From Streptomyces prunicolor NBRC 13075 (GTDB lineage Bacteria; Actinomycetota; Actinomycetes; Streptomycetales; Streptomycetaceae), in assembly GCF_000367365.1 (NCBI RefSeq), contig NZ_BARF01000074.1, forward strand, positions 62,001 through 126,000: DNA of 64,000 nt, read 5' to 3'. The notes below the pieces were generated by a model, which saw only the letters and a list, made by a program, of their open reading frames with translations, searched no databases and was not told where the DNA came from. A program made the translations under genes and the position numbers. How positions within the stretch are numbered: the stretch's first letter is position 1; each line of letters starts with the position of its first letter. This document shows, in pieces, positions 1 through 18,884 of this stretch.

Positions 1-565
1 TGGCGGACCAGGTCTCGGGCGGCGTGATATGTACCTCGTCGTAGAGACAGAGGCTCACGGGCACACCCTGAAGACCCTGAGCGTTCTTGGCGAACACCTT
101 GTAGGAGCCGCCCCGCTTGGTCGACATACCTCGTGTCTTGGTAGGCGCCTTCTCCATCCTGCGGAGCAAAGAAGGGTTCTCATCAATGACGTGCTTGACG
201 CGCTTATAGATGATGTTCGCCTGAGGCACCGTGGAGGCGACAGAGACAACCTCGGGACCAGGCTCATGCATGAACAAGCCAAAGACACCGAAGATGGCAC
301 CGAGGACTGACTTCCCGTTCTGCCTACCGACTGAGATAACTACCTGACGGAACCTAAGCGTTCCCGCCTTAGGATGTCCCTCGGGATAGACCTCAAGGAC
401 ATGGCGGATGACCCATCTTTGCCAGGGAAGTAGTTCGAACTTCTCTCTTTGGTCTTGGGCTTTCCAAGCCTTATCGACTAGCTCTAGTAGCTTGTCGCCC
501 GCGCTCGGGAAGTTCTCGTCTCCGGTTAGTGATGGGGTGTAGGTCTTAGGAAGCCAGAGGCTCAA
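1..565 (-). CDS. Phage terminase large subunit, 5' part (cut by window edge)
   Basis: A reading frame of 188 codons without a stop runs off the left edge. It would be the ATPase motor that packages phage DNA into proheads. Seen: a Walker A-like motif VISVGRQNGKS near residues 76-86 and a Walker B-like stretch LCLYDEVH near residue 175, the usual spacing for the N-terminal ATPase domain; the nuclease domain would lie outside the window. The start is taken as TTG (565-563), which overlaps the TGA stop of the preceding small gene (TTGA), suggesting translational coupling. A GTG a few bases upstream is in another frame and soon hits a stop. Function follows from the family motifs and the position after a TerS-sized gene and an HNH gene. 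Confidence 0.85.
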   Translation of the reverse strand, partial: MSLWLPKTYTPSLTGDENFPSAGDKLLELVDKAWKAQDQREKFELLPWQRWVIRHVLEVYPEGHPKAGTLRFRQVVISVGRQNGKSVLGAIFGVFGLFMHEPGPEVVSVASTVPQANIIYKRVKHVIDENPSLLRRMEKAPTKTRGMSTKRGGSYKVFAKNAQGLQGVPVSLCLYDEVHITPPETWSA

Positions 566-795
566 CTGTCACCAAGGATGGCGTCTAGCTCATCCTCTTC
601 AATAGCGTCCGTTGGCTTAAGACCATGCAAGTAACGGAACGTCTGGTTGTACTGTGTTACCAATGCGGCAGAGAGGTTCTTGTCAAGTGTCTCTGCCATC
701 TTCTCAAGTGCTACTGTTGCTGGCTTCTCATCCTCGCCAAGCCAATAGGCTCTGCCTAGAAAGACTTCAACTGCCTTTGTAAATGTCGTGCTCAT
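562..795 (-). CDS. Small phage protein, probable terminase small subunit
   Basis: This 77-residue protein starts at an ATG preceded by GGAGG six bases upstream. An upstream in-frame start would add a proline/glycine-rich leader with no good ribosome site, so the shorter form is preferred. It is mostly helical and charged, with a core (LDKNLSAALVTQYNQTFRYL) like the helical part of small terminase subunits that bind the packaging site. Its stop overlaps the start of the large terminase gene. The TerS call rests mainly on size, position and this weak resemblance; it could be another head-gene regulator. Confidence 0.55.
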   Translation of the reverse strand: MSTTFTKAVEVFLGRAYWLGEDEKPATVALEKMAETLDKNLSAALVTQYNQTFRYLHGLKPTDAIEEDELDAILGDS

Positions 796-842
796 GCTTC
801 CTCCAAAGTGAAATGTTTTGCTCCCTCCTGTAGCTAATGGTT

Positions 843-975
843 CTGGGGGCGGGGTCAACTAGACCCATTCTCAAAAAAACTGGCCTTCATTCTGCCTTGA
901 ATTCGCCTTCATCTTTGGCTATTCAATGTCGAATGTTTGAGCCTTGGTTGTGCTTATCCGAGCTGGGGGCGGGGT
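843..975. repeat. Two copies of a G-rich 13-mer, possible cos region
   Basis: The 13-mer CTGGGGGCGGGGT occurs at 843-855 and again at 963-975, exactly 120 bp apart, in the non-coding gap between the HNH gene and the terminase genes. On the minus strand each copy follows a small hairpin (GGGTCTAGTTGACCC at the left copy, a GATAG/CTATC stem at the right copy). A G/C-rich motif beside terminase genes is where many actinophages keep their cohesive-end site, so a packaging site is a reasonable guess but is not shown by the sequence. Confidence 0.35.
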
Positions 976-997
976 AGATAGTTGTCTATCCCTACCC

Positions 998-1252
998 TTA
1001 CAGCCATCGTCTATTGATGTAGGTTGTGCGTACTACATCCTTGTCTTGCTTACGTCCATTGCACTTACGACATGCAGCCTGCAAGTTATCCAATGTGTCG
1101 GTGCCTCCATTGTTCTTAGCAATGATGTGGTCTACCTGTGTGGCTTGACCCTCACAGTCTCCGAACTGTAGTTGGCATACGTATTGGTCACGCTGTAGAA
1201 CCTGAAGCCTTAGTGCTTCCCACTTGGCTCCCTTACTGCTGTGCTGGCTCAC
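998..1252 (-). CDS. Phage HNH endonuclease
   Basis: An 84-residue protein with a full HNH signature: CQLQFGDC, then VDHIIAKNNGGTDTLDNLQ, then CRKCNGRK. The DH pair with the later N and H/N positions would form the beta-beta-alpha metal site, and the two CxxC-type pairs would bind a structural zinc. HNH proteins encoded beside terminase genes assist genome packaging in HK97-like phages (family knowledge), which fits its place just upstream of the TerS/TerL pair. Its start overlaps the end of the preceding gene by 20 bp. A selfish homing endonuclease is the main alternative. Confidence 0.85.
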   Translation of the reverse strand: MSQHSSKGAKWEALRLQVLQRDQYVCQLQFGDCEGQATQVDHIIAKNNGGTDTLDNLQAACRKCNGRKQDKDVVRTTYINRRWL

Positions 1253-1424
1253 TGGTCTTACGTGCCCTTGTCTGCTTTGGCGCTACCTTCAGTTCTCGCT
1301 TGAAGTACCAGGTTGTACCCACAATGTGGATAAGCTCCCATCCCTCAGCGCCGAGGGTGTTTAGCTCTGGCTCTGTTAGTAGCCTGCCTAGGCTTGATAC
1401 CAAGCGCTTGTATTCGTATCTCAT
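1233..1424 (-). CDS. Small DUF4177-like phage protein
   Basis: This 63-residue protein has the pattern YEYKRLV...LNTLGAEGWELIHIVGTTWYFKRE, typical of small DUF4177-type proteins (a short beta hairpin around an LN.LG.EGWEL core). No enzymatic function is known for the group. It starts in an ATGA overlap with the stop of the upstream gene and its 3' end overlaps the HNH gene, so the row is probably translated from one mRNA. Confidence 0.6.
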   Translation of the reverse strand: MRYEYKRLVSSLGRLLTEPELNTLGAEGWELIHIVGTTWYFKRELKVAPKQTRARKTSEPAQQ

Positions 1425-1618
1425 ACTTCCTCCTTGTTCTCTCCGGACTTCATTCCTGAACCATCAATGCCGGTGAATTCTAGCCATCCGTTCTTCTTTA
1501 CAAACCGAATAACCCCCGGCCTTAGTTCAATGCGTGTTACCTCCGTGTCTGGCTGACCGAATACCAGGCAGAGCTTTTCCATGACTACCATTAGCTGGTT
1601 CATATCCTTTGTCTCCAT
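1421..1618 (-). CDS. Small phage protein of unknown function
   Basis: A 65-residue acidic/basic mixed protein with no motif I recognise. It begins at an ATG overlapping the TAA of the preceding 26-codon gene by one base (TAATG) and ends in an ATGA overlap with the next gene. These tight junctions are the main evidence that it is real and part of the leftward early-gene row. Confidence 0.6.
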   Translation of the reverse strand: METKDMNQLMVVMEKLCLVFGQPDTEVTRIELRPGVIRFVKKNGWLEFTGIDGSGMKSGENKEEV

Positions 1619-1698
1619 TACTTATTCATCTCCAATAGGGTGTGTGTTAGTGCGTATGCCCAAAGCATGGCCACAATGAGGAACAGTGCAAAGCTCAT
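1618..1698 (-). CDS. Tiny membrane peptide (26 aa)
   Basis: A 26-residue peptide beginning MSFALFLIVAMLWAYAL, essentially one hydrophobic segment followed by a short polar tail. The ATG overlaps the TGA of the upstream gene (ATGA) and its TAA overlaps the next ATG (TAATG). These two couplings, with no other explanation for the gap between two phage genes, support a real gene. The role is unknown; tiny membrane proteins are common in phage early regions. Confidence 0.5.
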   Translation of the reverse strand: MSFALFLIVAMLWAYALTHTLLEMNK

Positions 1699-2288
1699 GC
1701 TGCCATCTCGTAACCGAAGCCAAGGCGACTGTAGAACGCTTCCATAAGCGTCTCAGGCTCTTCTAGCTTGTAGACGTGTCGTAGGTCGTTAGAGATGTAC
1801 TGACCGATATCAAAGCCTCTTACTGCCTCTCTCCATCCTTGGATGTAGACATAGGGCTTGAAGCTAAATACCCGGCCGTTTTCTGCCTCAAAGTCAATGT
1901 AGGTCTTGACGTTAAGCGCATTGTCTCTTACGTCCTTGCGGAACACCTTCAAAGGGTTGCCAGAGCTATTAACCCTGCGTACCTCAAGGAACCACATAAT
2001 TTCTGGGAGCTTGTAGCGGTTATCTTCCACGTAGTAGCTCCAGTTACCGAGGTCAAAGGTAGGCAGTCCCATAGCCTTGACTACTGCCATCTCTGCCATT
2101 ACGCCTAGGGCGTCCTGGTCTGCTCCCATGACCCGGAAATTCTTTCCAGCGTATTCGGGGTTATCTACATTCCCCTTAACGACCTTCTGATAGTGCGTAC
2201 GCTGTTGACCCACTACCTTGCAACGGTCCTTCTCATCCTTTGTTACTGGCACCTTTAGCCAGCCTTCTTGTGTCACTTCAAACATCAT
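1695..2288 (-). CDS. Phage protein of unknown function, possibly nuclease-fold
   Basis: A 197-residue protein starting at a double ATG behind GAGGA. I do not recognise the family. The order of a buried acidic residue (GVMAEMAVVKAMG, around residue 65), then an EVR strand (WFLEVRRV, near 103) and a lysine-containing strand resembles the layout of PD-(D/E)XK restriction-like folds, but this is a weak impression only. It is the first gene after the leader at 2338-2457 and is coupled to the tiny membrane peptide downstream. Confidence 0.6.
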   Translation of the reverse strand: MMFEVTQEGWLKVPVTKDEKDRCKVVGQQRTHYQKVVKGNVDNPEYAGKNFRVMGADQDALGVMAEMAVVKAMGLPTFDLGNWSYYVEDNRYKLPEIMWFLEVRRVNSSGNPLKVFRKDVRDNALNVKTYIDFEAENGRVFSFKPYVYIQGWREAVRGFDIGQYISNDLRHVYKLEEPETLMEAFYSRLGFGYEMAA

Positions 2289-2337
2289 GTTTCCTCTATT
2301 CCTTTAGTATCCGGCCCTTTTCTTTGCCGGTAATACC

Positions 2338-2343
2338 ATTATA
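2338..2343 (-). promoter_or_regulatory. Possible -10 element for the leftward phage operon
   Basis: On the minus strand TATAAT occurs about 50 bases upstream of the 197-residue gene. No convincing -35 lies at the right distance, so this is only a candidate promoter. Confidence 0.35.
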
Positions 2344-2427
2344 AAGGAATTTGCGTTAGTGGGCTTGAAGAAATGTCTCCAGCTAGTAGCGCCTTTTATT
2401 CTGTTACATAAACGTGACAAAAGGAAA

Positions 2428-2457
2428 GGAGCCTAAGAGCATCAGCTCTTAGGCTCC
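2428..2457 (-). terminator. Intrinsic terminator in the phage early region
   Basis: A perfect 13-bp stem (GGAGCCTAAGAGC and its complement) closes a 4-base loop, and on the minus strand it is followed by TTTCCTTTT. It lies downstream of the 58-residue zinc-protein gene and about 30 bases after the operator-like palindrome at 2490, so it could end the upstream operon or act as a leader terminator. Confidence 0.75.
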
Positions 2458-2488
2458 CGAAAAGGAATGATGTTGTGTGACTAAGTCT

Positions 2489-2509
2489 ATTGTACCACAC
2501 TTTGTACAA
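2489..2509 (-). promoter_or_regulatory. Operator-like palindrome overlapping a TACAAT -10
   Basis: TTGTAC-N8-GTACAA is a perfect inverted repeat. Its left arm with the adjoining base reads TACAAT on the minus strand, a good -10 hexamer. A close relative lies at 3474-3494, and both share the minus-strand string GGTACAATAGA. A repressor-controlled phage promoter is the simplest reading. Confidence 0.5.
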
Positions 2510-2530
2510 AGGCTAGCCGGGCCGGCACTT

Positions 2531-2707
2531 CTATGGCTGCAAATTTAGGGTCTCAAACCAGGCCATGAACCGGTCGTATGCTGGGTTTTCTCTGCCGTTC
2601 TCCTTGCCCTCGTAGGTACATCCCTTACAGACGCCCCGCCGCTTCTCACCGCGCTTGGGGAAGTCCTCTAGAGCCTTCTCCTTCCTGCACTTGATGCAAG
2701 TCTTCAC
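2531..2707 (-). CDS. Small phage zinc-finger protein
   Basis: A 58-residue protein with two CxxC pairs (CIKC near the start and CKGC about 24 residues later), the pattern of short actinophage zinc-ribbon proteins that begin M-K-x-C-x-x-C. The start is placed at GTG 2707-2705, which overlaps the TGA of the previous gene (GTGA) and gives MKTCIKC directly; a longer in-frame version would add ten residues that do not fit the family. The family is related to the zinc site of endonuclease VII-like proteins, but the catalytic part is not seen here. Confidence 0.6.
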   Translation of the reverse strand: MKTCIKCRKEKALEDFPKRGEKRRGVCKGCTYEGKENGRENPAYDRFMAWFETLNLQP

Positions 2708-2829
2708 TTTTTGCCCTTCTCTATCTTCTCGGCACATTTCTTGTGGTAGACCGCACCATCAATGACTGCCCACTTCTCGTACGGCCCTAGACCCTTACCG
2801 CATCGAGCGCATCTAGCTGTTCCGCCCAA
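2704..2829 (-). CDS. Tiny phage zinc-binding protein (41 aa)
   Basis: Starting at TTG directly after the TAA of the previous gene and preceded by AAGGG, this 41-residue frame contains CARCGKGL and, further on, HKKCAEKI. These could hold one zinc ion in a CxxC...HxxC finger. Its stop overlaps the GTG of the next gene. The zinc residues and couplings make a real gene likely; the function is unknown. Confidence 0.5.
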   Translation of the reverse strand: MGGTARCARCGKGLGPYEKWAVIDGAVYHKKCAEKIEKGKK

Positions 2830-2955
2830 TTATCCCTTCTTCTCCTTAACGACAATGACATGCTTACATCCTTCTGTCTTCCTCTTGTTATATCCATTGG
2901 CCTTACCTACTTGGTAAGCGATGAAGACAAGTGCAACAACTATCAGTAGGTTCAT
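2830..2955 (-). CDS. Small phage membrane protein (41 aa)
   Basis: A 41-residue frame begins at ATG behind AAGGAG and starts MNLLIVVALVFIAYQVGKA, a single membrane-spanning helix, followed by a basic cytoplasmic-looking tail. It is the first gene of a three-gene coupled run ending at 2531. Function unknown. Confidence 0.55.
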   Translation of the reverse strand: MNLLIVVALVFIAYQVGKANGYNKRKTEGCKHVIVVKEKKG

Positions 2956-3384
2956 TTTCTTCTCCTTGTTTGTAGCTAGCTTCTTTAACTTCTAAATAAT
3001 TTATCCCCCCCCAGCGTGCCTAGAGACATCAGCCAAAGTTGATGACTGATGATGTCTCGCCGTTGTGTTTTTCGTTGCTGCCATGCAAAGGGCCTCACGG
3101 TCACACGCGCCTTTGCCTCTGGTCCTAGCCGTTGCTAGGTTCTTTCTCCTGATGTACGTCTAACCCGTACTGCTGTAGAGGATGGACCGTAGAAAGAATG
3201 GGTAAGAAATACGCACACTTCAATGGGACAGCAACACCACTAAAGGTGTCCATCCTCCCCGCAAGTCTTGGCATTACCCTCTTGCTGTTGGCTCCATCTC
3301 CCATGCCTTTTCCCTTGGGGCAAGTTCCGTATTGTTTCAACGGCAGGCATTCGCAGTTTCTTAAACTGTTTGGGCGTATAAAAA

Positions 3385-3414
3385 GGCCCTAGGTTCGGGA
3401 AGTAACCTAGGGCC
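3385..3414 (-). terminator. Intrinsic terminator in the prophage control region
   Basis: A perfect 11-bp stem GGCCCTAGGTT/AACCTAGGGCC with an 8-base loop is followed on the minus strand by TTTTTAT. No minus-strand gene lies immediately upstream; the nearest upstream element is the operator/-10 at 3474, so it would end a leader of about 80 bases. Confidence 0.75.
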
Positions 3415-3473
3415 AAGAGCTTGAAGTCTGTGGTGTTCTTGTCCTTCCCGAGACGCTTTAACGAACTAGTTCT

Positions 3474-3494
3474 ATTGTACCATGGTCTGTATCA
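3474..3494 (-). promoter_or_regulatory. Second operator-like element with TACAAT -10
   Basis: TTGTAC-N8-GTATCA is a degenerate copy of the palindrome at 2490, again giving TACAAT on the minus strand in the shared context GGTACAATAGA. It would drive leftward transcription into the terminator at 3414-3385 and, on readthrough, the small-gene row. Confidence 0.45.
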
Positions 3495-3598
3495 GGGCGT
3501 CGGCTTTGAGCCCGGTTTTCAAGGCTTTTTATGTAACAATTCTGTGACGTCTATCACGTTCTGCTATCCTTGAGGCTCGCTCAATGAAGGGAACGCAA

Positions 3599-4147
3599 GT
3601 GGCCACTAACGCCAACCCGGTAGATGCCTCTCGTAAGGACGAGGAGGGCGTGCGGGAAGTCAACACGCACATCCCTGGTGTAGGGGATGTAACGGCGTAC
3701 TTCCTTGTCGAGACGGTTGACGACGTTGACCAGAAGACCAAGGAAGACGTTCAGACGCTCAAGCTCTCTGTTCCGGTTGAGGCCGAGGAAGAGGTGGAGG
3801 AGCTTGACGCTGAGGGTGACCCGGTGAAGAACGAGGATGGCTCTACCAAGCTCAAGACTGAGACGTATTGGAAGACCGTTCACTATGAGGTGGACTTGGG
3901 CCAGGCGTCCCGAGAGAAGCTTGAGAAGGCTCTCGCTCCCTTCCTGAAGAACGCGCGTGAAGCTCAGGCTCCTGCTGTCGCTCGTGGTGGCTACAAGCCT
4001 CAGGCGCTTCCCTCTGGCGTGGACACTGCCGCTGTCCGTAAGTGGGCTGTGGACAACAACATCAAGGTTGATGGCAAGGGCATTAACGACAAGGGTCGTG
4101 TTCCTGCTGCTTTCATCGAGAAGTACGAGGAAGCCCACAAGGGATAA
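3599..4147 (+). CDS. Phage Lsr2-like nucleoid-associated protein
   Basis: A protein of 182 residues that looks like a complete Lsr2 with an insert. The N-terminal part has a VDDVD...LKLSV strand pair and then HYEVDLGQASREKLEKALAPF, the dimerisation-domain pattern. Between them is an acidic insert (roughly residues 50-80) absent from host Lsr2. The C-terminal 38 residues (VRKWAVDNN...KGRVPAAFIEKY) match the AT-hook-like domain that binds A/T-rich DNA. Host Lsr2 silences foreign DNA; phage copies could mimic or counter it (inference). GTG 3599 is preferred because AAGGGA lies six bases upstream; ATG 3584 is the alternative. It is transcribed away from the leftward phage genes. Confidence 0.8.
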   Translation: MATNANPVDASRKDEEGVREVNTHIPGVGDVTAYFLVETVDDVDQKTKEDVQTLKLSVPVEAEEEVEELDAEGDPVKNEDGSTKLKTETYWKTVHYEVDLGQASREKLEKALAPFLKNAREAQAPAVARGGYKPQALPSGVDTAAVRKWAVDNNIKVDGKGINDKGRVPAAFIEKYEEAHKG

Positions 4148-4182
4148 ACCCTTCTCGGGTGTGCAGTAGTGCAGACATGCAA

Positions 4183-4212
4183 AAAGGGCCCTAGGTCGAC
4201 CTAGGGCCCTTT
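4183..4212. terminator. Bidirectional terminator between convergent phage genes
   Basis: A perfect 30-bp palindrome (AAAGGGCCCTAGGTC and its complement) with A-rich and T-rich flanks lies between the 3' ends of the Lsr2-like gene and the XRE-type gene. It shares the GGGCCCTAGGT arm with the terminator at 3385. Confidence 0.85.
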
Positions 4213-4221
4213 GTCTTGCCT

Positions 4222-5004
4222 TCATGCTTCCGGCTGGATGTTCCACTTCTCTAGAGCCGCCTTGTTGGTGTTGGCGTCTTTGAATTCAAGTGTCCATGGT
4301 CCCGTGTTCACATCGAATTCCTTGCCGAACCCCAGCCACTTGCCGACCATGCGCCTACCGGTCGGCTCAATGAGCATCTGTATGGCTCCGTGATACCTAG
4401 CCCCTGCGTAGTACCCCTCAGAGGCAGTCTCCTCAACCCATGTTCCCGTGACCACGTTCCCGTCAAGGGTCAAGTCCATGGTGAGCGGAGAATTGGGGTT
4501 AAGTGAAGCACCCGGCAGAGACCTAACCGTGAGCTTGTTGCCGTGCTGCAAGAGCACGACGTAATGCTTACCGGTGAATGTGTTCGCCCGGCCACTTGAG
4601 AAGAATTCATAGTGACTAAGCCAGATACCGGAATAGTTGCCATTCTGGGTTCTCGTGGCTGTCTGTGCCGCTGGTGTGGTGGAGCTGGGAGCTGTCGCCG
4701 TTGACGGCTCAAGGTCATGACCGCCGTGTCCGTCGCTCTGGACGCTTGCCAGGGTGAGAGGGGCAGCGAACCCCAGGGCGTCGATGGGGAGCCCTGTGAC
4801 GCGCTCCAGGGCCCTTGCGTAGACCGGTCGGGGTGCTGCGGTCGTACCGCCCTCCCAGCGCTGTACAAGCCGCTTGTTGGCGTCATTGGGTTCCCCTGCT
4901 GATGCTCCTGCCTCCCTGAGCGCTCTTGCCATGTCGTCTTGGCTCATGAGCAAGCCCATGCGGACCGCCCGGAGCTTGGCGTTCGGTGTGTTCATGGTCA
5001 TCAC
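4222..5004 (-). CDS. XRE-type HTH regulator with unusual C-terminal domain
   Basis: A 260-residue protein. Residues 8-75 form a lambda-repressor-like helix-turn-helix (LRAVRMGLLMSQDDMARALREAG, then NKRLVQRWEGG and a following helix). A Ser/Thr/Ala-rich linker (about 90-115) leads to a beta-rich C-terminal domain (GNYSGIWLSHYEFFSS, GKHYVVLLQHGNKLTVRSL, GRRMVGKWLGFG), which I cannot assign to a named family and which might bind a ligand or oligomerise. Being divergent from the GHKL gene and close to the integrase, it is a candidate immunity repressor. An internal ATG three codons downstream is an alternative start. Confidence 0.65.
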   Translation of the reverse strand: MMTMNTPNAKLRAVRMGLLMSQDDMARALREAGASAGEPNDANKRLVQRWEGGTTAAPRPVYARALERVTGLPIDALGFAAPLTLASVQSDGHGGHDLEPSTATAPSSTTPAAQTATRTQNGNYSGIWLSHYEFFSSGRANTFTGKHYVVLLQHGNKLTVRSLPGASLNPNSPLTMDLTLDGNVVTGTWVEETASEGYYAGARYHGAIQMLIEPTGRRMVGKWLGFGKEFDVNTGPWTLEFKDANTNKAALEKWNIQPEA

Positions 5005-5034
5005 GGTAGCTCTCTCTGGCTCCGAATGACACCG

Positions 5035-5090
5035 AATTGACGCCCTGTCTGTCGCCGCTCTGACGTCTTGACTGACATCACGTCAACTGC
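5035..5090. promoter_or_regulatory. Divergent control region with nested inverted repeats
   Basis: Between the XRE-type gene and the GHKL gene lie TTGAC-N9-GTCAA (5068-5086) and the overlapping TGACGT-N13-ACGTCA (5061-5085), plus another TTGACG at 5037. These are plausible operators for the XRE protein, overlapping -35-like sequences. No clean -10 partner is evident. Confidence 0.4.
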
Positions 5091-5137
5091 CTTTGGTTCG
5101 CTATCTGTTGGGCACTGTCGGACGCAAGGGAGACGCA

Positions 5138-5572
5138 GTGGCCACGGTGAACGTTGAGCTTCCGGAGAAACCGGGGGTTAAAGAATGGCGGTGGGCAGCA
5201 ACAGCAGGATGCGCCCCGCTCTCAAGAAAGGTGTTCCGGAAATGGCTCTTCAGGGTCGGTGCCTCCCATCTTGAGGATGACGCATGTGTTCTCTTCTCGG
5301 AGCTGTTCGCTAACGCTCTGAGGTATCCGGCACCCGACATGCTTATTGCCACCAGGTGGCTTGTCCTCTCGGACGGCATCCGTGTTGAAGTAGACGATGC
5401 CTCAAGCCAAGACCCGGTAGTAGAGGGTCCACCGGATGACGCCGAGCACGGTAGGGGTCTCATCCTCGTTCACCTGATGTCGGCACGCTGGGGCGTGAAG
5501 CACCGCCGTTTCAACGACGGACACGGCAACTACCTGAACGGCAAGACTGTTTGGTTCGAGATGAAGGCGTGA
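5138..5572 (+). CDS. Phage GHKL ATPase, RsbW-like anti-sigma type
   Basis: A 144-residue single-domain protein with the Bergerat ATP fold: N box ELFANALRY, G1 box VEVDDAS and G2 box HGRGLILVHLM. Proteins of this size and type in Streptomyces act as RsbW/SpoIIAB-like serine kinases or anti-sigma factors (family knowledge). A phage copy might redirect host sigma factors (inference). GTG 5138 is chosen because AAGGGAG lies five bases upstream; a TTG 45 bases earlier is possible. It is divergent from the XRE gene and convergent with the integrase. Confidence 0.75.
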   Translation: MATVNVELPEKPGVKEWRWAATAGCAPLSRKVFRKWLFRVGASHLEDDACVLFSELFANALRYPAPDMLIATRWLVLSDGIRVEVDDASSQDPVVEGPPDDAEHGRGLILVHLMSARWGVKHRRFNDGHGNYLNGKTVWFEMKA

Positions 5573-5580
5573 GAGAACAG

Positions 5581-5622
5581 CAAAGGGCCCGGTTACCTAT
5601 CTTCAGGTAACCGGGCCCTTTG
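5581..5622. terminator. Bidirectional terminator before the integrase gene end
   Basis: A perfect 18-bp stem (CAAAGGGCCCGGTTACCT and complement) with a 6-base loop lies between the convergent GHKL and integrase genes. It is flanked by short A and T runs. Confidence 0.85.
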
Positions 5623-5631
5623 TGTTACGGC

Positions 5632-6417
5632 TTAGTCTTCGCCGTAGAGGTCTTCAACGATGCTGTCTAGCTGCTCCTTACTGAAGTTCGTGTAGTACTT
5701 CAGTGTTGTTGTGATGTCCGAATGCCTCGCTTGCTTCTGGGCTATCTTCGGACTGACTTTGTTGTTGACCATTTTGCTGATGTACCAGTGGCGTAGCATT
5801 CCGGGGTTGATGTGGATACCCACCTTCTTCCCGTTGCGCCAAATGCTCTCTCGGAGAGAACCAGACGTGATGATGGTTGGCTCATGCCTTGAGAGCCTGT
5901 CTGCGAGCCATTGAGGCAGAACCACTTGCCCGGCTGTCTTTGCGGTTACTAGCCGCCCGTTCTTGATGCGCTGCTTATGAACCATCAGGATGTTGCCCTT
6001 AAGTTCATTCTTGCTTGCTGCGCATGCCTCACCAGGGCGCAGACCGCCGTACATCATGAGGAGCCCCTGAAGCTCAAAAGGACTGAGCATCATGACGAAC
6101 CTCAATGTTTCCTCGGGCGGGAAGTCGTATACCCGAGGAATGGAGGCGGGAATTTTCAGCTCACGTATCCAGGGTGTTTCCCGGAAGATGGAGCGGTAAG
6201 CAATGGTGTGCTTACGGCGCGTGTTCTGGTTGAGCTGTTCCTGTGTGCGCTCGTAGATGAGCTGGAGAGACACGTTCTCCAGTGCCTCGTCCCAGAGGTC
6301 GTCATACAAGACACAGCCGAGGTAGCTGTCGACGGTAGACTGTCGTATCTGCCGTGTTGCCAGCGTAGTGAGGGCGAATTCCCCGATGGTTCCTGAGGTT
6401 GTCTCCAGTGTCGGCAC
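5632..6417 (-). CDS. int: Prophage tyrosine integrase
   Basis: A 261-residue tyrosine recombinase that would insert and excise the prophage. The N-terminal half is a core-binding domain ([13 protein letters not shown]...). The C-terminal catalytic domain shows the first arginine (GGLRPGEA), the second arginine ([12 protein letters not shown]), the late histidine (ARHSDITTT) and the tyrosine (LKYYTNF). The usual histidine three residues before the second arginine is a glycine here. The start is placed at GTG 6417, ten bases after a strong GGGGAGG; longer in-frame starts reach 6453. Its ribosome site lies inside the codons of the present miaB, marking this as the attachment-site end of the prophage. 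Confidence 0.85.
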
Positions 6418-7915
6418 GACCGATGAACCTCCCCGAACGTACGAAGTGCGCACTTATGGGTGCCAGATGAACGTTCACGATTCCGAGCGGCTCTCCGGTC
6501 TCCTGGAGGGTGCCGGTTATGTGCGCGCGCCCGAAGGTTCGGACGGGGACGCGGACGTCGTCGTCTTCAACACCTGCGCCGTGCGCGAGAACGCCGACAA
6601 CCGCCTCTACGGCAACCTCGGCCGGCTCGCCCCGATGAAGACGAAGCGGCCCGGGATGCAGATCGCCGTCGGCGGCTGCCTCGCCCAGAAGGACCGCGAC
6701 ACCATCGTGAAGAAGGCGCCCTGGGTGGACGTCGTCTTCGGCACGCACAACATCGGCAAGCTGCCGGTCCTGCTGGAACGCGCGCGCGTGCAGGAAGAGG
6801 CGCAGGTCGAGATCGCGGAGTCCCTGGAGGCTTTCCCCTCGACGCTGCCGACCCGGCGCGAGAGCGCCTACGCGGCCTGGGTGTCGATCTCCGTCGGCTG
6901 CAACAATACGTGCACCTTCTGCATCGTCCCGGCGCTGCGCGGCAAGGAGAAGGACCGCCGCACCGGCGACATCCTCGCCGAGATCGAGGCCCTGGTGGGC
7001 GAGGGCGTCTCCGAGATCACGCTGCTCGGCCAGAACGTCAACGCGTACGGCTCCGACATCGGCGACCGCGAGGCCTTCAGCAAGCTGCTCCGCGCGTGCG
7101 GCGCGATCGAGGGCCTGGAGCGAGTCCGGTTCACTTCGCCGCACCCGCGCGATTTCACGGACGACGTCATCGCCGCGATGGCCGAGACGCCGAACGTGAT
7201 GCCGCAGCTGCACATGCCCATGCAGTCCGGTTCCGACCCGATCCTCAAGGCCATGCGCCGGTCCTACCGCCAGGAGCGCTACCTGGGGATCATCGAGAAG
7301 GTCCGCGCGTCCATCCCGCACGCCGCCATCACCACCGACATCATCGTGGGCTTCCCCGGCGAGACCGAGGAGGACTTCGAGCAGACGATGCACGCGGTCC
7401 GGGAGGCGCGCTTCGCGCAAGCGTTTACGTTCCAGTACTCCAAGCGGCCCGGCACCCCGGCCGCGACCATGGAGAACCAGATCCCCAAGGAGGTCGTCCA
7501 GGAGCGCTACATGCGTCTCGTCGCCCTCCAGGAGGAGATCTCCTGGGACGAGAACAAGAAGCAGGTCGGCCGCACCCTGGAGCTGATGGTCGCCGAGGGC
7601 GAGGGCCGCAAGGACGGCGCCACCCACCGCCTCTCCGGGCGCGCCCCCGACAACCGCCTCGTCCACTTCACCAAGCCGGACCAGGAGGTCCGCCCCGGTG
7701 ACGTGGTGACGGTCGAGATCACGTACGCCGCCCCGCACCACCTCCTCGCCGAAGGCCCCACCCTGAACGTGCGCCCCACGCGCGCGGGCGACGCCTGGGA
7801 GAAGCGCAACGCGGCCGAGGCCGCCAAGCCGGCCGGCGTGATGCTGGGCCTGCCGAAGATCGGCGCACCCGCGCCGCTGCCGGTCGCCACGGGGAGCGGT
7901 TGCGGCTGCGACTGA
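6386..7915 (+). CDS. miaB: tRNA-2-methylthio-N6-dimethylallyladenosine synthase MiaB
   Basis: A radical-SAM methylthiotransferase that converts i6A37 to ms2i6A37 in tRNA reading UNN codons, acting after MiaA (encoded 3 kb downstream). Seen: UPF0004 domain cysteines ([22 protein letters not shown]), the radical-SAM cluster CNNTCTFC near residue 170, and a C-terminal TRAM domain ([13 protein letters not shown]...). Its length of 509 residues is normal. The first 16 residues are not host-like and appear to come from the prophage inserted upstream, so the start (ATG 6386 behind GAGGG, or GTG 6368) and the promoter are probably phage-derived. The tail GSGCGCD is cysteine-rich. Confidence 0.95.
6434..6540. 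other. Likely prophage/host junction (att site) in miaB
   Basis: The integrase ribosome site (6428-6434) abuts codons for the conserved MiaB start [14 protein letters not shown]. Third codon positions remain A/T-rich (ACT, TAT, GTT, GAT, GGT) until about 6540, then become typical of Streptomyces. The strand-exchange core should lie in this interval. Its exact position cannot be fixed without the other prophage end. Confidence 0.5.
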
Positions 7916-8125
7916 GGGACGCATCTCCAGGTCCGCGAGGGCTTCTTGGTGAGTGGGCACGCTCCCGCCCCCCCTTCGCCTGTCCGGCTGCGGTCGCCGA
8001 GCTGTTGCACGACGGCGGTGCCCTGACCTGGGCGGGGCCGGAACCAACCCGACCAGTACTTGTACGTCCGCCCGTGTCCCCACGCGGGCCGTCGCTGCCC
8101 GTGCCCGCTTGTTAGTGTTCCGGCC

Positions 8126-8851
8126 ATGCTCGTAGCCGCCGCAGTCTGCCCCTGCCCGCCGCTCCTCGTCCCCGATGTCGCCGCAGGTGCCGCGCCCGAG
8201 CTGGCCGCCGCGCGGGCCGCGTGCACCGACGCGCTGGGCGTGCTCGCCGCCGCCCGACCCGACCGCCTGGTGGTCGTCGGACCCGCCGAGCAGAGCGGGC
8301 GCGGGCCGCATCCTGAAGGCACCCGGGGTTCGTTCCGCGGCTTCGGAGTGGAACTCGACGTACGGCTGGGCGGCGACGGGGCCGAGGACGGGGGCGCGGC
8401 GTCGGAGCGTGAGCTTCCGCCCTCGCTCGCCGTCGCCGCGTGGCTGCTGGAGCGGACCGGGTGGTCCGACGCCCCGATCGAGGGGCTCGGCGTGGGGGAA
8501 CCTCTTGAGGCCGAGCGGTGTATTCAAACCGGGAGGGACATCGTCGCGCAGGCCGACAGGGTCGCGCTGCTGGTGATGGGCGACGCCAGCGCGTGCCGGA
8601 CGCTCAAGGCGCCGGGTTATCTCGACGAGCGGGCGGCCCCCTTCGACGCGGAGGTTGCGCGTGCGCTGGGGGCGGCGGACGTGGCGGCCCTCAAGGTGCT
8701 GGACGCCGAGCTGGCGTACGAGCTGAAGGCCTCCGGCCGCGCGCCCTGGCAGGTCCTCGCGGGCGCGGCGGAGGGCGCGGACCTGGGCGGCGCGCTGCTG
8801 TACGAGGATGCGCCGTACGGGGTCGGGTACCTGGTCGCGACCTGGTCGTAG
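8126..8851 (+). CDS. Class III extradiol dioxygenase-like (LigB/MEMO fold) protein
   Basis: A conserved actinobacterial protein of 241 residues in the class III extradiol dioxygenase superfamily. It begins MLVAAAVCPCPPLLVPDV and has a LVVVGPAEQSG strand-loop and a VALLVMGDAS strand. The substrate is unknown, and the metal-ligand histidines of true ring-cleavage enzymes are not evident, so a non-enzymatic MEMO-like role is possible. ATG 8126 is chosen over earlier starts because the family starts here. It lies between miaB and miaA and may be co-transcribed with miaB. Confidence 0.7.
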   Translation: MLVAAAVCPCPPLLVPDVAAGAAPELAAARAACTDALGVLAAARPDRLVVVGPAEQSGRGPHPEGTRGSFRGFGVELDVRLGGDGAEDGGAASERELPPSLAVAAWLLERTGWSDAPIEGLGVGEPLEAERCIQTGRDIVAQADRVALLVMGDASACRTLKAPGYLDERAAPFDAEVARALGAADVAALKVLDAELAYELKASGRAPWQVLAGAAEGADLGGALLYEDAPYGVGYLVATWS

Positions 8852-9551
8852 GTGTAGACGCGCAAGGGGCGGGCCGGGTGGGGATGGCGTGCTCTTCGTG
8901 ACGTCGCCCGTGGGCGCGTCGGGGGCTGAGCGTTGCCCGAGCGGAGCGTCTTGGGGTGTCCGGGCGACGCGCCGCCCAGGCGTGGCGATGCGGGGCGGGC
9001 ATCGCGCCCGCGTGTGGCGGGGCGGTAAGCACGGTGGTGCGGCTGGGGAGGCATTACCTCCGGGGGCGGCGGGGCCCCTGCGCGACGCTTGTGCGGGCGT
9101 CGTGGGCTGTCTGCGCGTCGCCCAGTTGTGGCCCTGTGTGGCAGTGCGTGTGCGCTCGCGAATGGTGGGGCGGCTGAGGAGGCGCTACCTCCGTGGGCGT
9201 CGGCGGGGTGGCGTGCCCCGCGCCGGGCGTCCGCGCGCGGCTCGGGCGTGGCACAGGGCGGCGGTGTGTGTCCGATCGGGAACGGCGGGCGGCTGAGGAG
9301 GCCGTACGCCCTCCGGCGGCGGCCGTGACACATGCGTGGGGGGCGCGGGCAGCACGCGCGCGTGCCGACGTGGCCGTCGCGCAGGCGACGGGTGCGCGCG
9401 AGGCGGTCGTAGCGCTCGCGAACCGCGTCCACCCCCCCCCGCCCTGAATTGCAACGTGTCCTCCTGGGGCCTACCTCCGCCTCACGAAACGGCGGACGGC
9501 CGGGGAGCCGTGCGCTCCGCGGCCGTCCGCCGATCGATGTGCGGGTGTCGT
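8852..9551. other. Intergenic region with degenerate repeats
   Basis: About 700 bp of very G/C-rich sequence without a credible gene; long frames exist on both strands but have no family signal. It contains three spaced copies of a GGAGG-spacer-CCTCC mini-palindrome (listed separately). Confidence 0.5.
9047..9314. repeat. Three degenerate repeats with GGAGG/CCTCC cores
   Basis: Copies at 9047-9061 (GGAGG-CATTA-CCTCC), 9178-9192 (GGAGG-CGCTA-CCTCC) and 9297-9314 (GGAGG-CCGTACG-CCCTCC) lie about 131 and 119 bp apart. The latter two share the preceding CGGCTGAGGAGG. Flanks are loosely similar, suggesting old tandem duplication of a unit of about 125 bp. Confidence 0.5.
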
Positions 9552-15673: not shown

Positions 15674-17203
15674 ATGCTGCTCACCCCTCGCACCGGCACG
15701 ACCGGCATCGGCATCCCCCGCACCGGCTCCGGTGATCCGGCTCCCCGTTCGCGCACCAGGAACTCCCGACGGCTGAAGGCGGCGCTGCTCGCCTCCGCCG
15801 TGTCCGTCTGTCTCGTCGCCGCGAGCGCGCCGCCCGCGCCCCTGGGTGTCGGTGACCGTCTCTTCCCGACCCTGGGCAACCCGGGCTACGACGTGGCGTC
15901 GTACGACCTCGCGTTCACGTATCCCGGCAGCAACACCAAGCCGCTCCAGGCCGTCACCACGATCGACGCGTGGACGACCGAGACGCTGGACCGGATCAAC
16001 CTCGACTTCGCGCACGGGACTGTTGACACGGTCGAGGTCGACGGGCGGCCCGCCACCTTCGCCAGTGCCGGCGAGGATCTGGTCGTGACTCCGGAGAGGC
16101 CGATTTCCGAGGGGAGTTGGACGCGGATCACCGTGCGGCACACCAGCGACCCGGTGTCGGCCAAGGGCCAGGACGGCGGCTGGGTGCGCACCAAGGACGG
16201 GCTCGCCATGGCCAACCAGGCCGACGCCGCGCACCTGGTGTTCCCGTGCAACGACCATCCCTCCGACAAGGCGATGTTCACCATCAGGGTCACCGCCCCC
16301 AACGCCTACACGGCCGTCGCCAACGGACTGCCGGCCGGCGTCGACAAGGTCGGCAGGAACACCACCTGGACGTACCGCACCCAGCACCCCATGGCCACCG
16401 AACTCGCCCAAGTGTCCATCGGCCGCTCCGCCGTGCTGCACCGCACCGGACCGCACGACCTGCCGATGCGCGACGTCGTACCCGCCAAGGACGCCAAGCA
16501 GCTCGAACCGTGGCTCAAGAAGACCCCCGACCAGATCGCCTGGATGGAGAGCAAGGTCGGCCGGTACCCCTTCGAGACGTACGGGCTGCTCATGGCCGAC
16601 GCGTCCACCGGCTTCGAACTCGAGACGCAGACGATCTCTCTCTTCGAGAGAGATCTCTTCACCGAGCCCGCCTACCCCAAGTGGTACGTCGAGTCGATCA
16701 TGGTGCACGAGCTGTCCCACCAGTGGTTCGGCGACAGCGTCAGCCCCCGCGCGTGGTCCGACCTGTGGCTCAACGAGGGACATGCCACCTGGTACGAGGA
16801 GCTGTACGCCGAGGAGAAGGCGCACCGGCCGATGGAGACGCGCATGAAGGCGGCCTACGCGGCCTCCGACCGCTGGCGCGCCGTCGGCGGACCGCCCGCA
16901 CTCCCCAAGGCGCCCGCGCCCGGCCAGAAGATCAGCATCTTCCGCCCCAACGTCTACGACGGCGCTGCCCTGGCCCTCTACGCCCTGCGCCAGGAGATCG
17001 GCCGCCCGGCCTTCGAACGCCTGGAGCGCACCTGGGTGAGCGTTCACCGGGACGGCACGGCCACCACCGCCGACTTCGAGGAACTCGCCTCCGCGATCTC
17101 CGGCCGCGACCTGAGCGACTTCTTCCAGGGCTGGCTCTACGGCGAGAAGACCCCGCCGATGCCGGGTCACCCGGACTGGAAGTCGCAGGCACCGGTGAAA
17201 TAG
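15674..17203 (+). CDS. Secreted M1-family zinc metallopeptidase
   Basis: A 509-residue exported protein. A long basic N-region (RTRNSRRLK) precedes a hydrophobic signal segment (AALLASAVSVCLVAASAPPAP). The aminopeptidase N-like catalytic domain carries HELSHQWFGD (HExxH, about residue 345) and the third zinc ligand in NEGHATWYEE, 18 residues on. The typical GAMEN exopeptidase motif is replaced by TGFELETQT, so N-terminal specificity may differ from classical aminopeptidases. A tyrosine (DGAALALYALRQ region) and a helical end follow. It stands alone between rshA and hflX. Confidence 0.88.
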   Translation: MLLTPRTGTTGIGIPRTGSGDPAPRSRTRNSRRLKAALLASAVSVCLVAASAPPAPLGVGDRLFPTLGNPGYDVASYDLAFTYPGSNTKPLQAVTTIDAWTTETLDRINLDFAHGTVDTVEVDGRPATFASAGEDLVVTPERPISEGSWTRITVRHTSDPVSAKGQDGGWVRTKDGLAMANQADAAHLVFPCNDHPSDKAMFTIRVTAPNAYTAVANGLPAGVDKVGRNTTWTYRTQHPMATELAQVSIGRSAVLHRTGPHDLPMRDVVPAKDAKQLEPWLKKTPDQIAWMESKVGRYPFETYGLLMADASTGFELETQTISLFERDLFTEPAYPKWYVESIMVHELSHQWFGDSVSPRAWSDLWLNEGHATWYEELYAEEKAHRPMETRMKAAYAASDRWRAVGGPPALPKAPAPGQKISIFRPNVYDGAALALYALRQEIGRPAFERLERTWVSVHRDGTATTADFEELASAISGRDLSDFFQGWLYGEKTPPMPGHPDWKSQAPVK

Positions 17204-17390
17204 GGCGGTGACGGGGCAATAAAGCGGTGACAGGGCAATAAATAAGGCAGTGACGTGGCGATCCGCGCCGTGCGACCATCGTCAGGTCGGCGGCGCGGGT
17301 CACCGGGGACACACCCGGCAGCCACCGGGAATCTCCGGAGGCGCCCGAACGTTATGACCTTTGCAGGACTCCCATCGACGTAAGGACCCA

Positions 17391-18884
17391 ATGACCTCCT
17401 CTTCTTCCCCTTCCCAGGACACTGAGCGCCTCGCGCACGCCTACCCCGAAGGTCTTCGGGCCGATGCCCTGATGGAAGAGGACGTCGCCTGGAGCCACGA
17501 GATCGACGGAGAGCGGGACGGCGACCAGTTCGACCGCTCCGAGCGCGCGGCCCTGCGCCGCGTCGCCGGCCTCTCCACCGAACTCGAGGACGTCACCGAG
17601 GTCGAGTACCGACAGCTCCGCCTGGAGCGCGTTGTACTCGTCGGCGTCTGGACCACGGGAACGGTGCAGGACGCGGACAACTCGCTCGCCGAGCTGGCCG
17701 CCCTCGCGGAGACCGCGGGCGCGCTCGTGCTCGACGGTGTCGTCCAGCGCCGCGACAAGCCTGACGCGGCCACCTACATCGGCTCCGGCAAGGCCAACGA
17801 ACTGCGGGACATCGTCCTGGAGACCGGCGCCGACACCGTCATCTGCGACGGTGAGCTCAGCCCGGGCCAGCTGATCCACCTCGAAGACGTCGTCAAGGTC
17901 AAGGTCATCGACCGGACGGCCCTGATCCTCGACATCTTTGCCCAGCACGCCAAGTCCCGAGAGGGCAAGGCACAGGTCGCGCTCGCGCAGATGCAGTACA
18001 TGCTGCCGAGGCTCCGCGGCTGGGGCCAGTCGCTGTCCCGTCAGATGGGCGGCGGCTCGGGCGGCGGCCTCGCCACCCGTGGTCCCGGTGAGACCAAGAT
18101 CGAGACGGACCGGCGTCGTATCCGCGAGAAGATGGCGAAGATGCGCCGGGAGATCGCGGACATGAAGACCGGCCGCGACATCAAGCGCCAGGAGCGCCGT
18201 CGCCACAAGGTGCCCTCGGTCGCGATCGCCGGCTACACCAACGCCGGCAAGTCGTCCCTGCTCAACCGCCTCACGGGCGCGGGCGTGCTGGTCGAGAACG
18301 CGCTGTTCGCGACCCTCGACCCGACCGTGCGCCGGGCCGAGACCCCGGGTGGACGGCTCTACACGCTGGTCGACACCGTCGGATTCGTCCGGCACCTGCC
18401 GCACCACCTGGTCGAGGCCTTCCGCTCCACGATGGAGGAGGTCGGCGACGCCGACCTGATCCTGCATGTGGTGGACGGTTCGCACCCGTTCCCGGAGGAG
18501 CAGCTGGCCGCCGTACGCGAGGTGATCCGGGATGTCGGCGCCACCAAGGTGCCCGAGATCGTGATCATCAACAAGGCGGACGCGGCCGACCCGCTGACGC
18601 TCCAGCGGCTGATGCGGAAAGAGAAGCGCTCCATCGCGGTCTCGGCCCGCACCGGCCAGGGCATGGACGAGCTGCTCGCGCTCATCGACAGCGAACTGCC
18701 GCGCCCCTCGGTCGAGATCGAGGCGCTCGTGCCGTACACCCACGGCAAGCTGGTCGCCCGCGCCCACTCCGAGGGCGAGGTGATCTCCGAGGAGCACACC
18801 CCGGAGGGCACCCAGCTCAAGGCGCGGGTCCACGAGGAACTGGCGGCGGAGCTCGCGCCGTACGTCCCGGCACCGCTGGCCTGA
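17391..18884 (+). CDS. hflX: Ribosome-associated GTPase HflX
   Basis: A 497-residue Obg-HflX superfamily GTPase that binds ribosomes, splits stalled or heat-damaged ribosomes and hydrolyses GTP. Seen: the N-terminal HflX domain (ERVVLVGVWTTG, YIGSGKANELRDI), a glycine-rich turn GGGSGGGLATRGPGETKIE before a basic coiled coil, then the G domain with GYTNAGKSS (G1), DTVGF (G3) and NKAD (G4). ATG 17391 lies behind AAGGA; a TTG 30 bases earlier is unlikely. A strong hairpin follows the gene. Confidence 0.95.
   Translation: MTSSSSPSQDTERLAHAYPEGLRADALMEEDVAWSHEIDGERDGDQFDRSERAALRRVAGLSTELEDVTEVEYRQLRLERVVLVGVWTTGTVQDADNSLAELAALAETAGALVLDGVVQRRDKPDAATYIGSGKANELRDIVLETGADTVICDGELSPGQLIHLEDVVKVKVIDRTALILDIFAQHAKSREGKAQVALAQMQYMLPRLRGWGQSLSRQMGGGSGGGLATRGPGETKIETDRRRIREKMAKMRREIADMKTGRDIKRQERRRHKVPSVAIAGYTNAGKSSLLNRLTGAGVLVENALFATLDPTVRRAETPGGRLYTLVDTVGFVRHLPHHLVEAFRSTMEEVGDADLILHVVDGSHPFPEEQLAAVREVIRDVGATKVPEIVIINKADAADPLTLQRLMRKEKRSIAVSARTGQGMDELLALIDSELPRPSVEIEALVPYTHGKLVARAHSEGEVISEEHTPEGTQLKARVHEELAAELAPYVPAPLA

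Follow-up and report, generated by a model that had tools for sequence, protein, structure and literature searches.

A leader with mutually complementary loops and a structured RNA form a conserved noncoding unit of a Streptomyces prophage, MulchRoom-type satellites and virulent BE-type phages

The stretch of 64,000 nucleotides (nt) from Streptomyces prunicolor NBRC 13075 analyzed here (contig NZ_BARF01000074.1, positions 62,001 to 126,000; hereafter the window) carries the right part of a prophage and, within it, a noncoding unit that recurs among phages and their satellites. A promoter-terminator arrangement termed module 2 (3503-3385, read leftward) makes up, together with the next 380 nt, a conserved unit of promoter, leader hairpin, terminator and structured RNA, which is also found in the phage satellite MulchRoom, in two satellite contigs from IMG/VR (L027 and L032) and in virulent BE-type Streptomyces phages. 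The order of the parts (leftward promoter, leader, terminator, RNA block, genes) is kept in all of these. In our favored interpretation, held at even odds, module 2 would act as a self-recognising attenuator, giving rise to a short terminated RNA and a read-through structured RNA. An earlier account made from the letters of this DNA (the sequence-only reading) had proposed two like modules, each with an operator, a −10 site and a terminator; the 380 nt structured RNA past the second terminator and the match between the terminator loop and the leader of module 2 are features beyond that account. The parts of the unit are, in window coordinates:

3498..3503, minus strand: weak −35-like hexamer CCGACG of module 2 (with TACAAT at an 18-base-pair (bp) spacer, 8 of 12 positions match)
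3471..3482, minus strand: extended −10 of module 2, TGGTACAATAGA, whose core TGGTACAAT is also found at the equivalent place of L027
3463..3472, no strand: inverted repeat GAACTAGTTC at −10/+1, a possible operator (p=0.067 alone)
3441..3454, minus strand: leader hairpin H1, GUCU[CGGGAA]GGAC, showing segment S1 (3444-3450)
3385..3414, minus strand: terminator hairpin H2 of module 2, 11 pairs and a loop of 8, then T-rich sequence; loop segment S2 at 3396-3402
3005..3384, minus strand: type-A structured noncoding RNA with a G8 run at its end, a short way ahead of the ribosome-binding site of the next gene
2830..2955, minus strand: first leftward frame beyond the structured RNA, 41 amino acids (aa) with a hydrophobic N-terminus and no PHROGs match

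The S2 loop of the module 2 terminator is complementary to S1 over 7 nt (p=0.013 compared to shuffled leaders). This complementarity of terminator loop and leader hairpin loop, by which, along with a match to the 3'-domain model given below, we define a type-A element, was present in module 2 and absent from module 1 (2509-2427), where the terminator loop is 4 nt long, the loop-leader match covers 5 nt (p=0.23, not significant) and no structured RNA follows. The likeness of the two modules proposed by the sequence-only reading is thus doubtful; common to both are the 12-base TGGTACAATAGA of the promoter core and a short inverted repeat after it. The terminators that it placed before the genes were found in each module, at 2458-2427 (14 pairs) and 3414-3385 (11 pairs), and its suggestion that such an order points to attenuation or antitermination is supported for module 2, in which the order recurs in MulchRoom, the two IMG/VR satellite contigs and BE-type phages. 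We treat module 1 as an ordinary promoter-terminator pair, or a remnant, before the gene at 2288-1695. It comprises:

2486..2497, minus strand: extended −10 of module 1, TGGTACAATAGA
2479..2487, no strand: inverted repeat GACTTAGTC at −10/+1 (p=0.109 alone)
2427..2458, minus strand: terminator of module 1, 14 pairs and a loop of 4, then T-rich sequence
1695..2288, minus strand: leftward gene after module 1, 197 aa, no family match

The loop-leader match was compared over 19 leaders, 5 from satellites (both window modules counted) and 14 of helper type. A perfect complement of at least 6 nt was present in 18 of the 19, with the complementary segment located 13-23 nt past the −10 box. The complements summed to 148 nt, compared to 75 expected from shuffled leaders, and their mean of 7.8 fell to 3.7 when dissimilar loops were swapped, only 1 of 330 swaps reaching 6 nt. 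The 19 leaders hold 16 distinct segments; the loops vary between phages yet change together, and exact compensatory loop changes were seen in two pairs of relatives (MulchMansion/Warpy and L025/StarPlatinum). The match was specific at the level of whole genomes: when the terminators of single genomes were screened by rule, it was obtained for one of 46 in MulchMansion, one of 9 in MulchRoom, one of 7 in the prophage and one of 4 in L027, and for none of 6 in MiniFlayer and none of 6 in L032, whose mismatch-containing hairpin escapes the rule. An automatic rule was also applied to 11 other phages, chosen for diversity among 60 listed of 84 matching records, and gave a complement of 6-10 nt at the top-ranked terminator in 8 of them. 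Pairing of satellite loops with helper loops was considered as well and set aside, as among the 5 satellite and 14 helper-type leaders only L027 matched a helper, namely Daubenski.

Leaving module 1 aside, the 18 module-2-type leaders consist of a leftward promoter, a leader of 34-73 nt and the terminator. A TTGAC −35 box is present in 13 of these; the others are the window (CCGACG), L027 (TAGACA), L032 (TTGCCT), Paradiddles (TGCACA) and Mildred21, which had no scan match and for which the −10 was set by likeness. H1 has a stem of 7 or 8 bp with a loop of 6-7 nt in 13 of the 14 helper-type leaders, Daubenski being the exception. The spacer between H1 and H2 is 5-7 nt in Warpy, Jay2Jay, Mandalore and Coruscant (H1 of 7-8 bp, H2 of 12-14 bp) and 11-43 nt in the other members. 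A kissing complex stacks two stems end to end, and on general geometric grounds a spacer of 5-7 nt would need to bridge about 25 bp, which is impossible without melting a stem, a constraint that two separate molecules would escape. As the loops differ across phages yet match within each leader, and as the spacer is too short in four leaders, the pairing probably takes place between molecules, in trans; members with longer spacers may pair within one molecule.

The block following the terminator was aligned from 13 type-A sequences. RNAalifold predicted 59 pairs on the leftward strand, 31 of them changed on both sides, compared to 49 and 25 on the other strand. In the leftward structure 97.4% of the cells were paired, and the paired percentage, the double changes and the covariation score all exceeded those of all 500 shuffles, whereas 4 of 500 shuffles equaled it in further pair types. 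These figures lean towards the structure, which was itself obtained from this alignment of related sequences. Slid versions of the structure gave at most 47.7% paired cells and 10 double-changed pairs. The balance of G-U to A-C cells was 70 to 2 leftward and 16 to 7 on the other strand, although 38 of the 70 leftward G-U cells come from a doubtful helix involving the G run; over helices common to both strands, counted by eye, G-U cells were 9 leftward versus 1 on the other strand. Because the pair counts and the G-U/A-C balance favor the leftward strand, the type-A RNA is most likely transcribed leftward, in the direction of module 2, and a plus-strand RNA, with fewer pairs and more A-C mismatches, was rejected. 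A run of G7-9 closes the RNA in 13 of 13 sequences. No Rfam family, GOLLD and ROOL included, reached its gathering threshold for window 2200-3700 or MulchMansion 16500-17400 (best 25.8 bits, threshold 59), and for Sushi23 and MindFlayer the sole match above threshold was a tRNA gene outside the block.

Window 1-6430 has MulchRoom as its best phage match, and the noncoding stretch 2994-3144 also matches large Streptomyces phages including MulchMansion, the helper of MulchRoom. The accessible part of the satellite report describes MulchRoom as a helper-dependent satellite of Streptomyces phages and places MulchMansion and MindFlayer in cluster BE (PMC10690885); our label "BE-type" reflects this placement and the filing of most of the records used under one subfamily, Boydwoodruffvirinae. 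The block adjoins lsr2 in MulchRoom, and in the annotated BE-type records examined it lies between leftward genes and a rightward glycosyltransferase gene. BE-type phages bear one of two unrelated blocks at this one place, either type A (MulchMansion, Paradiddles, Mildred21, Warpy, Mandalore, Genie2, StarPlatinum and Jay2Jay) or type B (Sushi23, Daubenski, Bmoc, MindFlayer and Coruscant). The type-B block (L019, L020, L021, L022 and L023) also looks structured, and its rightward strand contains, by eye, a stretch CAGGTCGAAACTGGAAGCAG resembling signal recognition particle RNA or tRNA in Sushi23 and Daubenski.

A covariance model of the type-A 3' domain found a single copy in each of 10 of 19 records, all type A, and none in the other 9. 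The window scored 117.4 bits with this model (R1) while being among the 13 sequences from which it was built. Over 18 sources the 3'-domain model gave 9 matches, consisting of 8 type-A blocks, one of them the window copy in L031, and one that looks like chance, at 15.7 bits. Viral contigs scanned for the pattern returned 9 loci, and a looser pattern the same 9; among these are L024 and L025, new BE-like contigs carrying the block, L031, which holds the window's own sequence around the block with an equal model score, and L027 (14.8 kb) and L032 (13.3 kb), contigs with MulchRoom-type genes. Further integrated carriers were looked for: the exact pattern occurred in no stretch of 84,980 species genomes (the window's own genome possibly left out), two of 392 Streptomyces genomes had a site (the window's own and one with a single mismatch, which scored 15.7 bits), and none was found on 15 chromosomes carrying the HATPase gene (15 of 80 HATPase loci examined). 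MiniFlayer, tried as a type-A carrier, gave no match by blastn or by the model, and was compared to type B by blastn of one intergenic stretch only. In its intergenic region (L012:11499-11910) a pair of rightward TTGACA promoters was seen by eye, with a strong terminator after the first.

From the observed anatomy, conservation, covariation and likely strand we infer how module 2 might be transcribed, terminate by default, act in trans and sense dosage. A promoter near 3480 would start a leftward RNA, in which the first hairpin (3454-3441) would expose a loop complementary to that of the intrinsic terminator at 3414-3385. By default, transcription would stop at the terminator, releasing an RNA some 90 nt long whose two loops are complementary to each other; in some rounds, or given a signal, the polymerase would read through into the 320-380-nt structured RNA and the leftward genes. 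The short RNA could meet its own kind, as a dimer or on a nascent leader, and read-through would then be set by the number of copies of the element.

A number of points weigh against this model. Some loops among the 19 leaders were hand-picked after the match had been seen. The automatic rule missed three phages, Enygma (7 nt, at the hairpin ranked second), Wofford and Peebs; the 8 phages that it hit represent 6 distinct loops, 5 of them newly seen, as Braelyn, EGole and Evy share one and that of Tribute is StarPlatinum's. In the window, MulchRoom and L032 the H1 stem has no more than 4 bp, the U-richness of the terminator tails is moderate, and the sequences, being related, are not independent. 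The leader promoters were chosen by their position before the terminator, and the module 2 promoter of the window, like that of module 1, has an extended −10 (TGGTACAAT) without a good −35. Furthermore, a leftward match to TTGACA-N17-TACGAT or TACTAT, often better-scoring, lies 67-70 bp further upstream in each of the 14 helper-type leaders and is lacking in the 5 satellite leaders; it may be the true start or a second one, in which case the RNA is longer. Action in trans rests on the steric argument for four leaders, two of which are close relatives. No convincing protein was found to track the RNA type in 12 genomes (6 per type), and no partner protein emerged: among frames of at least 45 aa, with four of the 13 genomes loaded taken to 120 kb, short or antisense frames topped the scores (0.34 at most) and the best annotated genes reached 0.02-0.05. 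Control of particular genes is also conceivable, as endonuclease VII-like genes are located downstream in MulchRoom, L032 and, weakly, the window. Speaking for the model, by contrast, the first gene past the RNA differs between carriers, being a hypothetical protein in MulchMansion, endonuclease VII in MulchRoom, a membrane protein like MulchRoom gp15 in L027 and the 41-aa frame in the window. As a separate observation, the upstream TTGACA-N17 match overlaps the rightward glycosyltransferase promoter (L009:16740-17289 and the other 13 helper-type leaders), and it possibly gives a second, longer leader.

It is possible, although we consider it on the improbable side, that the block is instead a helper-type replication origin or primer RNA, where the leftward transcript would prime or open the origin, the short RNA would limit this, and helper replication proteins would copy the satellite. 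A signal of this kind would explain why satellites without replication genes keep the block: the accessible text of the satellite report describes MulchRoom and MiniFlayer as lacking key replication genes (PMC10690885), and no replication protein was found among 24 prophage proteins scanned against PHROGs or the 10 of these also scanned against Pfam, short frames being partly covered (a 78-aa frame at L005 12691-12927, for example, was outside the scan). What the window prophage has in common with MulchRoom, apart from Int, HATPase and Lsr2, is the block, and the G7-9 run at the end of the RNA also speaks for this reading. In both MulchMansion (17.0 kb) and the prophage (14.75 kb) the cumulative GC skew reaches its minimum at the block, but this is confounded by divergent transcription, and the global minimum of MulchRoom lies elsewhere. 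An origin also fits poorly with the unrelated block held by type-B phages, which has no C run over 6, with MiniFlayer lacking a block match, and with the lack of any replication protein tracking the RNA type among the genomes compared.

A cis-acting antitermination or leader RNA, letting the polymerase through terminators further along an extended leftward operon, for example that at 2458-2427, appears unlikely to us. The block does stand first in a series of leftward genes, which includes those for the prophage virion and has a strong terminator within it, and the block is structured on the transcribed strand. However, being located downstream of the first terminator, it would give no help in passing that one, the blocks had no Rfam match at threshold, and in BE-type phages types A and B precede alike-annotated genes (a small hypothetical protein, then an endolysin or hydrolase).

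We give still less weight to the whole stretch being a stand-alone phage noncoding RNA, in which the "terminator" would be an internal hairpin and kissing loops would build oligomers as in GOLLD and ROOL. Intermolecular kissing loops are described for such phage RNAs in the available text of PMC12286853, and the 10 type-A records matched have one copy each. The type-A and type-B leaders, however, both have a long stem and a U-rich tail despite unrelated RNA downstream, which fits a terminator better, and Rfam again gave no match at threshold.

The promoter sites bear on the remaining alternative. Both promoter-like −10 sites of the sequence-only reading are real: GGTACAATAGA occurs exactly at 2486-2496 and 3471-3481 on the minus strand, the sole matches at up to 1 mismatch in the window, and these 2 copies compare to 0.09 expected, with none of 100 shuffles reaching 2, for a motif that was picked after the fact. 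As a motif of helper-phage promoters GGTACAATAGA was rejected (1 copy in MulchMansion, none in MulchRoom or MiniFlayer). A consensus scan of window 1-9000 found no standard sigma-70 promoter (2.1 expected). The palindrome TTGTAC-N8-GTACAA claimed for both sites is perfect at module 1 (2490-2509) and degenerate at module 2 (2 mismatches, 3475-3494), and a third match with 2 mismatches was found at 19208, beyond the prophage (0.27 expected). At up to 2 mismatches it was not found at the equivalent promoters of MulchRoom, L027 and L032, L027 retaining only the extended −10 TGGTACAAT; elsewhere in these three there are 5 matches, one with a single mismatch (L027 7322). Absence of the palindromes from close relatives had been named by the sequence-only reading as grounds against its proposal, and the operator part of it is accordingly not supported.

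Inverted repeats just past the −10 were enriched over 17 distinct leaders (score 162 compared to 93.4, standard deviation 10.7; the best of 2000 shuffles reached 135), L027 being without one. Since these repeats sit at the expected transcription start, they are a possible repressor site. Direct control of both promoters by a repressor on TTGTAC-N8-GTACAA, as first proposed, is quite improbable in our view, for all that module 1 has a perfect palindrome and an XRE-like protein is encoded nearby, as the palindrome is degenerate at module 2 and missing at the MulchRoom, L027 and L032 promoters, the recurrent inverted repeat being at −10/+1 instead.

The self-recognising attenuator can be extended to a doubtful but consequential idea, in which satellites and virulent helpers would share one noncoding "password" RNA: the short form would recognise none but its own kind via kissing loops of 6-7 nt and in this way count copies, and the long form would be a signal for replication or expression of the satellite by the helper. 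If this were true, compatibility groups like those of plasmids would be set by exchanges of the long part (type A, type B) among phages together with loop changes. A noncoding unit present in both satellite and helper may be what lets such parasites exploit their helpers. The loops can be mutated and restored, and attenuation through loop-loop pairing becomes open to study in a whole family of leaders that are complementary to their own terminators.

The prophage as a whole spans 17.9 kb (G000:C129:50522-68481, in coordinates where the window is G000:C129:62001-126000), window 1-6481 being its right part. Its GC content is 52.9%, compared to 67.7% and 71.9% in the 6-kb flanks, a low value as in MulchRoom-type satellites. 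The repeats that flank it and the cassette genes near the unit are:

6436..6481, no strand: right copy of a 46-bp direct repeat (att), at the 5' end of a gene that we take, from its sequence alone, to be miaB
G000:C129:50522-50567, no strand: left copy of this repeat (the right copy is 68436-68481 in the same coordinates)
5632..6453, minus strand: tyrosine integrase, 34% identity to the MulchRoom integrase
5093..5572, plus strand: HATPase_c_2 protein, 68% identity to the MulchRoom "histidine kinase"
4222..5004, minus strand: XRE-like regulator (PHROGs regulator family, E 1.4e-6; no Pfam match; no match to the MulchRoom helix-turn-helix (HTH) protein)
3584..4147, plus strand: Lsr2-like protein, 53% identity to MulchRoom Lsr2
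2531..2737, minus strand: short endonuclease VII-like protein (PHROGs endonuclease families, E 4e-5 to 6e-4; no Pfam match)

The prophage encodes a tyrosine integrase, HATPase, Lsr2, an XRE-like regulator, HNH, a terminase, a portal, a protease-capsid fusion, connectors, tail proteins and a tape measure. The PHROGs scan of 24 proteins gave a weak holin match (E 0.005) and no convincing lysis protein, and an 810-aa protein matching endolysins in PHROGs was read as the tape measure given about 20 tape-measure matches alongside. The Int-HATPase-Lsr2 cassette of MulchRoom-type satellites is present (34, 68 and 53% identity), whereas TerS, TerL, portal, scaffold, major capsid protein (MCP) and the HTH protein of MulchRoom have no match in the prophage (tblastn, E 1e-3), which does have tail genes; L027 and L032 hold all five MulchRoom virion genes (TerS, TerL, portal, scaffold and MCP). 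The "prophage early region" of the sequence-only reading lies in a prophage as proposed; control cassette of a satellite-like element is the better description. Judging by its genes, the prophage appears to combine a MulchRoom-like control cassette with unrelated virion genes, and we do not file it as a MulchRoom-type satellite; it may depend on a helper.

The cassette offers some further observations. HATPase is the best conserved protein common to the window and MulchRoom (68%), and the "histidine kinase" of MulchRoom (L007:7551-7985) and its relatives consist of a short HATPase_c_2 domain resembling anti-sigma factors. The rightward promoters of lsr2 and HATPase (window 3535-3583 and 5060-5140) look alike by eye (TGACRTC...ATCACGT, then GCTATCnTTG), perhaps representing a second pair of operator sites. 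Long hairpins between convergent genes, one of 19 pairs at 5622-5581 and another, noted by eye, at 4180-4212, look like bidirectional terminators separating the regulator genes. Joining this cassette to unrelated head and tail genes, with no recognisable replication or endolysin gene, the prophage may be a satellite building its own tailed particle.

Several known systems resemble parts of the unit. In ColE1, RNA I and RNA II interact by kissing loops of 6-7 nt that diverge between self-recognition groups, the long RNA contains a G run, and the partner is an antisense RNA; kissing loops and G run are alike in module 2, where both loops are instead on one strand. In P4 immunity and other phage leader-RNA immunity, termination is influenced by pairing of a satellite leader RNA with its own leader; P4 uses a processed RNA and different sequences, and the likeness to module 2 is one of description. 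The early region of the Streptomyces phage phiC31 has promoters near terminators and inverted repeats; to our knowledge neither a kissing leader nor a structured RNA is known there. The available text on IsrK of prophage Gifsy-1 describes one promoter, a terminator, and a short and a read-through RNA, the short form acting in trans on the long one by switching on translation (PMC4825925). In its architecture IsrK is a precedent for a short RNA that ends at a terminator and acts on the read-through version of itself, module 2 differing in the loop-loop pairing within one leader. GOLLD and ROOL are likewise phage-encoded structured RNAs with intermolecular kissing loops, and are larger than the block, with 659 nt for the ROOL studied and many GOLLDs over 800 nt in the accessible part of the report (PMC12286853), in addition to the block having no Rfam match at threshold.

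Related in biology are MulchRoom, MiniFlayer and their BE-cluster helpers (PMC10690885, accessible part), with which the prophage shares the Int-HATPase-Lsr2 cassette, low GC and the block beside lsr2, the block being shared by BE-type phages as well. As available, that report contains in its main text none of the words intergenic, promoter, noncoding and non-coding, nor does it name a sequence by which satellites use their helpers (PMC10690885); the unit provides a small, testable handle on helper dependence. No earlier report of the type-A RNA was found among the papers listed from the open-access literature, subscription journals and preprints being outside the search. Attenuator leaders are a familiar class, as are phage noncoding RNAs, and a recognition RNA shared between satellite and helper would go beyond them.

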